Shown here: positions 35,883 to 39,169 of the stretch, one piece after another
How positions within the stretch are numbered: the first letter of the stretch is position 1
Layout: each line of letters starts with the position of its first letter
Source of the DNA: a virus
DNA: 63,331 bases
IMG/VR virus record: IMGVR_UViG_3300021964_000059
Coordinates: 1-63,331 of that record
Strand: one strand, 5' to 3'
Program-made: the position numbers and the translations under genes
Notes under the pieces: generated by a model
What the model was told of the DNA's origin: nothing
What the model saw: the letters and a program-made list of their open reading frames with translations, nothing else
The model's database searches: none

Positions 35883-36530
35883 ATGGCAAACATAAGCGAA
35901 CTCAAATCACTTGCTTCCGTTACATTTGGTTTTGCCAGAAGCAATAACTTTCTCGTTGAACTTCCGTCAATCGGAGGTGCTGGAGGATCAAGTTCTAGTC
36001 AAAAAAGAGAACTCAATCTTCTTTGTAAAAATGCCCAGCTTCCAGGTAAGCAAATTTTAACTGTTGATCGTGTTATTGGTATGCAGGCAGAAAAAATTGC
36101 ATATGGATATGCTGTTGCTCCTGTTAGTTTCTCATTCTATGCCATGAATGATTATTTCATTCGCAAATATTTTGACAGATGGCTTGACCTAATGATGAAT
36201 GAGGATAATGGATTAGTGGGATATAAGAAGCCATCTGGGTATGGTGGATACAGAAGTACAGGATATGCTGCCGCAATAAAAATTCATCAATTAAGAAAAC
36301 CTCAGATTGGTATCAATGCTAATGTTGGACCAATCCAGATTAACGTTGGGGCAGGTGGAGGTTCAGTATACAGTATTGAGCTCGAAGATGCATTTCCGAC
36401 TCAAATCCAATCAGTAGAATTTTCAAATGACTTGGACGGTCTTGTTGAAGTGTTTGTTGAATTTTCATATACGAAGTGGAAGGCAATTAAGCCTTCACAA
36501 AACTTTATCAATGTAAACGTGGGTGTATAA
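35883..36530 (+). CDS. Tail-tube / baseplate tube-initiator-type protein (gp54- or gp19-like), 215 aa
   Basis: N-terminus ATVRFGFARSNNFLVELP-like (SVTFGFARSNNFLVELP) and the segment ELNLLCKNAQLPGKQILTVD followed by YAVAPVSFSFYAMNDYFIRK are characteristic of the gp19/gp54 tube-fold family, which binds the hub and starts the tail tube. Size (215 aa) lies between T4 gp19 (163 aa) and gp54 (320 aa). Because it is followed by gp26, gp51 and the tape measure and the gp19-sheath pair is absent here, gp54 is the more likely equivalent. The central Gly-rich insertion (YKKPSGYGGYRSTGYA) is unusual. Confidence 0.7.
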   Translation: MANISELKSLASVTFGFARSNNFLVELPSIGGAGGSSSSQKRELNLLCKNAQLPGKQILTVDRVIGMQAEKIAYGYAVAPVSFSFYAMNDYFIRKYFDRWLDLMMNEDNGLVGYKKPSGYGGYRSTGYAAAIKIHQLRKPQIGINANVGPIQINVGAGGGSVYSIELEDAFPTQIQSVEFSNDLDGLVEVFVEFSYTKWKAIKPSQNFINVNVGV

Positions 36531-36540
36531 TGGAGAAATT

Positions 36541-37251
36541 ATGGCTATACCATCACTAAATTCGTCACCAAAGTATACGGTACAAATTCCGTCTACTGGT
36601 GAAACAGTAAGGTTTCGACCTTTCCTTGTGAAAGAACAAAAGGTCTTGTTGTTGGCCTATGAGTCACAAGACAAGAAACAAATTATTGGAGCAATCCTTG
36701 ATACGATTAAATCATGTGTTGAGGGTGATATTGATGTTTATCAATTGGCTACCTTTGATGTTGATTATCTGTTTACTCAGATCAGAGCAAAGTCGGTTGG
36801 AGAAAAAGTAGATATTGGATTAAAGTGTAGTCATTGCGAGACTCAAAATAATCAAGAGATCAATCTTGAGGATGTAAAGATTGATGGTAAGAAAGAGTCT
36901 AGTGTGATCAAACTTACTGACGAAATTTCAATTAAAATGAAATATCCTAACTACGAGAAGTTCATGAAGAACAATGATATCTTTGAATCGAAGACATCAA
37001 CTGACATCATTATGAACATCATCATCGCAAGCATTGAATCGATTATGACAGAAGAAGAGAATGTTCTTGCTGCAGATGAAAGTAGTGAAGACCTGATGAA
37101 CTTTGTTGAGTCGATGACTGCAGCTCAGTTCCAATTGGTATCTGACTTTATGGAAGAGATGCCAACAATGAAGTTGGATGTAAACTTTAAGTGTGTAAAC
37201 TGCAGCAAAGACAATACAGTAACATTACAAGGAATTGACGATTTTTTTTAA
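36541..37251 (+). CDS. 26: Baseplate hub assembly protein gp26
   Basis: Start moved to ATG 36541, which follows GGAGAAATT; the in-frame codon 18 bases upstream is not preceded by a ribosome site. The protein (236 aa) has two CxxC pairs (LKCSHCETQ and FKCVNCSKD), a zinc ribbon typical of gp26-like baseplate hub assembly proteins; T4 gp26 is 208 aa. It is followed by gp51 in the -1 frame and then the tape measure, the arrangement of tail assembly chaperones G/GT. The stop codon follows a run of eight T residues. Confidence 0.8.
   Translation: MAIPSLNSSPKYTVQIPSTGETVRFRPFLVKEQKVLLLAYESQDKKQIIGAILDTIKSCVEGDIDVYQLATFDVDYLFTQIRAKSVGEKVDIGLKCSHCETQNNQEINLEDVKIDGKKESSVIKLTDEISIKMKYPNYEKFMKNNDIFESKTSTDIIMNIIIASIESIMTEEENVLAADESSEDLMNFVESMTAAQFQLVSDFMEEMPTMKLDVNFKCVNCSKDNTVTLQGIDDFF
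37242..37251 (+). promoter_or_regulatory. Slippery T8-TAA site: putative -1 frameshift between gp26 and gp51
   Basis: In the gp26 frame the sequence reads GAT TTT TTT TAA. Slippage by -1 on the eight T residues continues into the gp51 frame for 61 codons without a stop. This frame lacks any upstream ATG, GTG or TTG with a ribosome site. Confidence 0.7.
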
Positions 37252-37433
37252 TAAGTCTCTCTCATGAATCGCTGGAAAACTATTTTAAAACAAACTTCCA
37301 GCTGTTGCAGAATTTTCATTATTCTCTACATGAGATCGAAGATATGATCCCTTGGGAGAGAGAAATTTACTTAACAATGTTAATTACAGACATTCAAGAA
37401 AAGAACGAAAGAGCACAACAAGGAATGCAATAA
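37248..37433 (+). CDS. 51: gp51, baseplate hub assembly catalyst, read by -1 frameshift
   Basis: 61 codons in the -1 frame relative to gp26: FKTNFQLLQNFHYSLHEIED, then MIPWEREIYLTMLITDIQEK and ERAQQGMQ. The 'FxNFHYSxxEIxxMIPWEREIY' block is the conserved heart of gp51, which T4 needs for hub assembly (T4 gp51 is 249 aa). No start codon with a Shine-Dalgarno site exists in this frame, so a -1 shift on the preceding T8 run would make a gp26-gp51 fusion, as the lambda G-GT tail chaperone does. It ends TAATG, overlapping the tape measure start. Confidence 0.75.
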   Translation, partial: LISLSHESLENYFKTNFQLLQNFHYSLHEIEDMIPWEREIYLTMLITDIQEKNERAQQGMQ

Positions 37434-39169
37434 TGGCAATAACTCTTGCTGATGTAAACGCACAGCTAGTCAAGCAGAACGAGCTCCAGGAAGAACAGAA
37501 CAATCTTTCTGCCGCACAGGTCGGCGCTATTGCTGGGATGGCCAGTGGACTATCCTCTTTAATTGATACGTTTAAATCTGATCAAATGGATCAGCTTGAG
37601 GCTGATCGGGAAAAACGAGCAGAAGAACGTAGGGTAGTGAAAAGTACTACTCCTAAGGCCGATAACAAGAAAGGACTTTTTGACTTCTTACCCGAGGGTG
37701 GCTTATTTGGTTTAGGTGCAGGGCTTGCCAAATTCTTACCGAAGTTTCTTTTGGGCAGAGCTCTGCCAGCGTTATTGGCAAAAATGTTTGCAGATGAAAT
37801 TGCTGACTATGTTGAGTCAGCCACAGGCAGTAAAGATTTAGGCGATGCAATCTATAGAGGATTGAATCTTGGAGCATTGGGTCTTCTTGTAAGTAGAAAA
37901 TTAGGAATAGTAGGGTTTTTTGCCGGTGCCTTGCTCACAAGTGAAAACAGACAAAAGTTAGAAACTCTGGGTGGGTCTCTCACAGAATTAGGTACTAAGA
38001 TAGGACAGTTTTTTGATCCTGAATTTGGATTACCATCATTTGATCAAGCTTTTAAATTTGTAACTGAAACATTTGGTAGAGCATTAGATTTCTTGATATC
38101 TGGTACCTCATACATAACAAATTTAATGAAGGATGACAAGACAGAAGAAGATCTAAAAAAGATGGATCAAGATCTGGATATCTTGGGTGACAATTGGGAT
38201 GACTTTGGAATTGCTATTGCTGGCCTTGCTGTAATGTTTAAACCGTTTGGTACCGTAAGCTTAATATTAAAAGCAATAGCCGCTCCATTTAAGATGGCAT
38301 ATAAAGGACTTAAAGGATTAGCTGGTCTAGTTCTTGGTGGTACGGCTATCAAAGAATTTGGTAAAACACAAATGGGTGAGATGAGCAAAGGTGAATTGCA
38401 AAAGATGAATACCAAGCAGATTCAAGGAATGTCTGCAGATGATATTAAAAAATTGGAAGGTGAAGGCTATAAGGTCAATCAAAAGACCGGCGCTGTAACA
38501 AATCTCAAAGGACAAGCCGTATCGGCTGATCAGGTTCGTGGCTCCATGTCCCGACTGGGTATGGAAAATCCATTAAACCAAGCCGCAGCTAAAAAATATA
38601 GCAGATTCGGAAAACTCCTCAAGGTTGGGAAGAGTATACCATTCCTTGGCAGTCTGTTATCAGCAGGATATCTTGGTGCAATCTTACTGAGTGATGCATC
38701 CGACGAAGAAAAAATAAAAACCATCGGTGGATTATTTGGTGGTGTTGCTGGTTCATTAGCCCTTGCCGGAATAGGTTCTTTAGCAGGTCCATTCGGTACA
38801 ATTGCTGGAGCGATTGGTGGTGGATTGGCAGGTGATCAATTGGGTCAATGGTTTGCTGGATGGTTAATGAATAATAATGGCAAGCAAGCTGGTACTGAAA
38901 GTGTTGGGGACTATGGTGAGTTTGGTAATTTAGGTAACGACCTTAGTGCACCCACTTCCCAAGCATCCGCTCCATATGCACCAATGTCAGGAACAATACT
39001 AAGAGATGTTGCAGATCAAAGTGTGGCAATGCAGAATACATCCGGTGGAGTTAATATGCTTGACACTAGTGATAAGAGTATTACAGTTAACAACAGTAGT
39101 GGGGTAACCATGGCAGGACCAATGGGTACCCCATTTGATACTTACAACAAGTATGTACTGTACGCTTAG
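37433..39169 (+). CDS. 29: Tail tape measure / hub protein gp29
   Basis: ATG at 37433 overlaps the gp51 stop (TAATG); an upstream in-frame ATG inside gp51 was rejected. The 578-aa length agrees with T4 gp29 (590 aa). The N-terminus is a coiled coil (ELQEEQNNLSAAQVGAIAGM ... EADREKRAEERR). Then come hydrophobic, Gly/Ala-rich helices (KFLPKFLLGRALPALLAKMF; GSLALAGIGSLAGPFGTIAG), which tape-measure proteins use for tube-length setting and membrane penetration. A repeat-like KMNTKQIQGMSADDIKKLEG lies in the middle. The end converges with gp32 with overlapping stop codons. Confidence 0.8.
   Translation: MAITLADVNAQLVKQNELQEEQNNLSAAQVGAIAGMASGLSSLIDTFKSDQMDQLEADREKRAEERRVVKSTTPKADNKKGLFDFLPEGGLFGLGAGLAKFLPKFLLGRALPALLAKMFADEIADYVESATGSKDLGDAIYRGLNLGALGLLVSRKLGIVGFFAGALLTSENRQKLETLGGSLTELGTKIGQFFDPEFGLPSFDQAFKFVTETFGRALDFLISGTSYITNLMKDDKTEEDLKKMDQDLDILGDNWDDFGIAIAGLAVMFKPFGTVSLILKAIAAPFKMAYKGLKGLAGLVLGGTAIKEFGKTQMGEMSKGELQKMNTKQIQGMSADDIKKLEGEGYKVNQKTGAVTNLKGQAVSADQVRGSMSRLGMENPLNQAAAKKYSRFGKLLKVGKSIPFLGSLLSAGYLGAILLSDASDEEKIKTIGGLFGGVAGSLALAGIGSLAGPFGTIAGAIGGGLAGDQLGQWFAGWLMNNNGKQAGTESVGDYGEFGNLGNDLSAPTSQASAPYAPMSGTILRDVADQSVAMQNTSGGVNMLDTSDKSITVNNSSGVTMAGPMGTPFDTYNKYVLYA

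Follow-up and report, generated by a model that had tools for sequence, protein, structure and literature searches.

A -1 frameshift probably joins gp26 and gp51, putative tail assembly chaperones, in T4-like phages outside the T4-type clade

Introduction

How is gp51 made in a phage whose gp51 frame offers no usable start codon? The question is raised by a marine T4-like phage, IMG/VR virus record IMGVR_UViG_3300021964_000059, whose whole stretch of 63,331 nucleotides is referred to here as the window. An earlier reading of its letters (the sequence-only reading) had proposed that gp26 and gp51 form a frameshifted tail-chaperone pair. We find it very probable that the two constitute a single gene giving two tail assembly chaperones (TACs) through a -1 slip, while T4-type phages have two duplicated genes in its place.

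In a 2016 review T4 was named as the exception to tail-chaperone frameshifting, and the TAC ORFs of different phages were noted to share low similarity (PMC5009743). T4 needs gp51 for assembly, yet the particle does not contain it; the presence of gp26 in the hub is disputed (PMC3004832). According to papers that cite their work, the TACs of T4-like phages were identified by Vladimirov, Gautam and Davidson (2022, Virology 566:9-15); going by PF12322 and phrog matches, the T4 genes meant there would be 26 and 51. The PRFect paper (PMC10885494) states that some T4-like phages dispense with frameshifting and carry the short gene alongside a fused long one. The Adele paper (PMC12846349) credits the poly-T slippery sites of T4-like TAC-N genes to Vladimirov et al. 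2022, so the sequence-only reading, which knew of no established frameshift for T4-like gp26/gp51, needs correction on this point. The core idea is not new. What the present analysis may add is the breadth of the survey, the codon-level test and the internal Shine-Dalgarno (SD) element.

Results

Gene order and frame junction in the window

The features of the locus are listed in Table 1. The PF12322 match spans the whole of the short form, which contains CxxC pairs and ends in GIDDFF. The gp26 frame was found to close with GAC GAT TTT TTT TAA and gp51 to lie in the -1 frame, both as the sequence-only reading had described. The heptamer is contained in a T8 run (37242-37249). The -1 frame is an open stop-to-stop ORF from 37239 to 37433, closed upstream by a TGA at 37236-37238. 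Because it is open only from 37239, a slip must fall within 37239-37251, the region that holds the T-run. After such a slip the first new codon would be that at 37248 and the added product LISLSHESLENYF...QQGMQ (61 aa), giving a fusion of 297 aa. Besides phrog_634, which carries the label 'baseplate hub assembly catalyst', the -1 product matched the C-terminal end of the gp26 family, phrog_150. The first canonical start in the gp51 frame is a TTG at 37305, which lies inside the conserved domain; the gp51 frame holds no ATG, GTG or TTG ahead of that domain.

The gp51 stop codon TAA (37431-37433) overlaps the ATG of the next ORF (37433-37435), which is preceded by AAGGA at 37420-37424. The overlap and the gene order, compared earlier with lambda G/GT upstream of the tape measure, were both recovered. 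The other part of that comparison is less firm, the downstream ORF being a probable tape measure from its position and weak profile matches.

Table 1. Features of the gp26-gp51 locus (window coordinates)
Feature	Position	Strand	Basis
Tail tube protein homologue, upstream neighbour, in the place of lambda V	35883-36530	+	phrog_45, E=3.6e-33
gp26 homologue of 236 aa, putative short form of the tail assembly chaperone (TAC-N)	36541-37251	+	PF12322, E=2e-60; phrog_150, E=2.4e-66
AAGGA, internal Shine-Dalgarno-like element 8 nt 5' of the heptamer, proposed stimulator	37229-37233	+	Sequence; family-wide enrichment
Slippery heptamer U UUU UUU, proposed -1 frameshift site	37242-37248	+	T TTT TT(T/C) in 251/251 split loci
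0-frame stop TAA, end of short form	37249-37251	+	Sequence
gp51 domain, -1 frame, 61 codons and stop, proposed to extend the long form (TAC-NC) at its C-terminus	37248-37433	+	phrog_634, E=6e-23; shares a single ORF with the gp26-like part in T4-type phages
Downstream ORF, 578 aa, probable tape measure protein	37433-39169	+	phrog_23574 (tape measure), 7e-7; phrog_1047 ('tail associated lysin'), 1e-10; position

The frame relation and the slippery codons are conserved

We assembled 271 loci, counting that of the window, through a related-locus search and from annotated phage records, and searched all of their ORFs with iterated profiles. Both domains were present in 262 loci, split between frames in 251 and fused in 11. 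In every one of the 251 split loci, window included, gp51 was in the -1 frame and the overlap contained T TTT TTT or T TTT TTC, so that aligning the junctions for conserved slippery T-runs, as had been suggested, gave a uniform result. Two further split cases, Moby and Aeh1, were judged by eye. The -1 frame was free of stops over 50 codons in all 213 distinct sequences, and gp51 was conserved among relatives at the protein level.

The constraint extends to the choice of codons. The first Phe codon was TTT in every split locus and the second was TTT or TTC, while the codon before them always ended in T, whether it encoded D, N, S, A, T, G, H or F. As the loci are related, we clustered them by gp26 identity, a 50% threshold giving 41 clusters. 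The first Phe was TTT in 41/41 clusters against a background of 0.645 (log10 P -7.8) and the preceding codon ended in T in all 41 (log10 P -8.2), these P values being a guide only, since clusters at 50% are still partly dependent. The second Phe codon was TTT in 17 clusters and TTC in 24. X XXY YYZ slippage would be expected to leave such a pattern, which is unlike a protein constraint; the codon usage supports conservation of the nucleotides at the junction beyond what the protein alone would ask. The heptamer's presence throughout the split loci and this codon-level constraint together lend support to the frameshifted-chaperone reading.

A Shine-Dalgarno-like element precedes the heptamer

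Across the family, predicted pairing with the 16S rRNA tail was strongest for the 8-mer ending 7-8 nt short of the heptamer. Best pairing energies averaged -6.76, as compared with -5.52 in synonymous shuffles (z=-8.1), and the Glu codon at position -5 was GAG in 27/37 clusters against a 25% background (p=1.6e-9). The element is enriched beyond what the protein sequence explains. T4-type gene 26 ends, which lack the heptamer, still gave SD-like pairing of -3.3 to -6.5, weaker than in the split loci, suggesting that part of the signal is either a by-product of the protein sequence or a relic. An internal SD 5' of the slip site is also found in bacterial -1 cassettes of dnaX-like anatomy, and the window has AAGGA in the corresponding place; its pairing with the 16S rRNA tail probably acts as a frameshift stimulator.

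The downstream RNA structure that the sequence-only reading had suggested seeking at the junction, and which in dnaX-like cassettes is a stem-loop or pseudoknot, was not recovered as a conserved fold: RNAalifold gave no consensus on the 213 distinct junctions or on three subgroups of them. In the window, the region after the slip site (37255-37345) folded at -19 kcal/mol (z=-2.49 versus shuffles), in a fold not common to relatives. In a 63-locus sample the mean folding z was -1.74 at +12. What signal there is downstream is modest and lineage-specific.

T4-type phages carry the long form as a second gene

T4 gp26 (208 aa) and T4 gp51 (249 aa) both matched PF12322 (8.8e-64 and 3.9e-52, respectively). 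T4 gp51 covered positions 13-280 of the 282 in phrog_150 (2.6e-84), that is, the whole gp26+gp51 profile. Alignment placed the join in T4-type gp51 at GLxDFF of gp26, which is the frameshift site of the split loci. Judged by these matches, T4 gp26 and gp51 are paralogues, the former being the short form and the latter the short form fused in frame to a gp51 domain. Genes 26 and 51 of T4 are on opposite strands. The heptamer was found in 0/10 T4-type gene 26 loci examined, where EFF was mostly kept but written TTC TTT. In a PF12322 tree T4 gp26 and T4 gp51 each fell to one side of a branch; long branches meet there, and the duplication is left undated. In one T4-type locus (L096, 2482-3255) the fused gp51 is split mid-gene into two overlapping frames, away from the junction, through either a sequencing error or a real lesion.

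Aeromonas phage Aeh1 (L275, 119007-119723 on the minus strand and beyond) has a single PF12322 gene, and its gp26 has a -1 extension, FFRLTLVNDSVYDLF..., behind T TTT TTC. A 2010 study listed Aeh1 gp51 as missing and described cyanophage gp51 as being without its first ~200 residues, at ~20% of full length (PMC3037559). The ~200 absent residues are the gp26 frame. The frameshift form would account both for the cyanophage gp51 that looked 'truncated' and for the Aeh1 gp51 that seemed 'missing'; these accounts, like the internal SD stimulator, may not have been described before.

Other explanations of the frame break

Could gp51 instead be a small protein in its own right, its translation either reinitiating after gp26 terminates or beginning at a non-canonical start shortly past the gp26 stop? 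Several records annotate a separate gp51, and an in-frame ATG occurs within the region scanned in 74/251 loci, sometimes right at the gp26 stop (Vibrio ValKK3, as TAATG; S-PM2; phiM7), so that in this minority of relatives a separate gp51 could also arise. However, in 146/251 split loci no ATG, GTG or TTG is present in the gp51 frame 5' of the domain. In loci that do have an ATG, it mostly lies 18-22 nt from the SD-like element, which is too far for ordinary initiation, indicating that the element is not positioned as a start signal. The survey thus did not turn up the relatives that had been named as fatal to frameshifting, in which gp51 would have its own start codon and SD site. Reinitiation also leaves the codon constraint on the heptamer unexplained, and T4 gp51 bears the domain fused to a gp26-like part. 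We consider separate synthesis of gp51 very improbable.

Transcriptional slippage, in which a U inserted at the T-run of some mRNAs would give the same fusion by standard decoding, we rate a shade lower still. The T8 run of the window, like the runs of 8-9 Ts that occur in 76/251 loci, could permit some slippage by RNA polymerase, but in 159/251 the run is just 6 Ts, ended by C. A run of 6 Ts is too short for efficient transcriptional slippage, which favours slippage of the ribosome, and what is conserved is the register of the X XXY YYZ codons, not the length of the run. The frame break might also be an error of sequencing or assembly, since homopolymer runs are generally error-prone and the T-run is one of them, or gp51 might be decaying. 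The break recurs identically in 251 loci, drawn from isolate genomes as well as many samples, which refutes this reading, and the conservation of gp51 as a protein argues against decay; its chances are negligible.

Discussion

On the ribosomal frameshift reading that we favour, most ribosomes would translate 36541-37251 and stop there, producing the short form of 236 aa (gp26, TAC-N). A minority, holding tRNA-Phe in the P site and in the A site, would slip back one base on U UUU UUU, probably aided by pairing of AAGGA with the 16S rRNA tail, and would read on to 37433 to give the long form of 297 aa (TAC-NC). If the pair works as lambda gpG/gpGT does, the tape measure protein from the next gene would be coated by many short and few long molecules, another tail part (the tube subunit or hub) would be recruited through the added C-terminal domain, and both forms would leave before the virion matures. 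In T4-type phages, gene 26 would supply the short form and gene 51 the short form plus extension in one frame. The chances are about even that, in T4-like phages outside the T4-type clade, an internal-SD-assisted U UUU UUY slip sets the ratio of two hub/tail chaperones, and that T4-type phages swapped this fixed ratio for a gene duplication with the copies on opposite strands.

The closest known system, going by the papers that cite Vladimirov et al. 2022, is the TAC-N/TAC-NC pair of T4-like phages, which is the same type of pair in the same phage group with a shared N-terminal part; T4 uses two genes where the window has one gene and a probable frameshift for the same job. Lambda G/GT shows the same order of major tail protein, short chaperone, -1 extension and tape measure, but its heptamer is G GGA AAG, and the gp26 family differs in having CxxC pairs. 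P2, a contractile-tail phage, has the same layout in E and E+E' with T TTT TTG as heptamer, though E is only 91 aa. With hhalign, neither lambda gpG (E 0.24, probability <1%) nor P2 gpE (E 0.16, probability <1%) showed similarity to the gp26 family. A Pfam profile search with window gp26 matched no TAC family, and solved structures gave no meaningful sequence match. Given no similarity to lambda gpG, P2 gpE or Pfam TAC families, the lambda-like role proposed here follows from the layout and the cited work. In Bacillus phage 0305phi8-36, two genes with a shared domain (gp143 and gp144) replace the frameshift, as in T4 (PMC2147016); this phage belongs to a different lineage and has no frameshift there.

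With the frameshift cassette, the ratio of short to long form in T4-like phages can be tested directly. The cassette also bears on annotation, several public records of such phages listing gp51 as a separate or absent gene. In Aeromonas ZPAH1 (L100), Syn30 (L082) and ACG-2014d (L084), gp51 is unannotated yet the -1 frame is present; the ORF 3' of gp51 in Syn30 carries the label endolysin. An extra small ORF was seen between gp51 and the long downstream ORF in four loci (L103, 2182-2547; L104, 2911-3240; L086, 1690-2109; L102, 2168-2416), the relatives concerned being Rhizobium IC12, Methylophilales Melnitz, phiM7 and Cr30.
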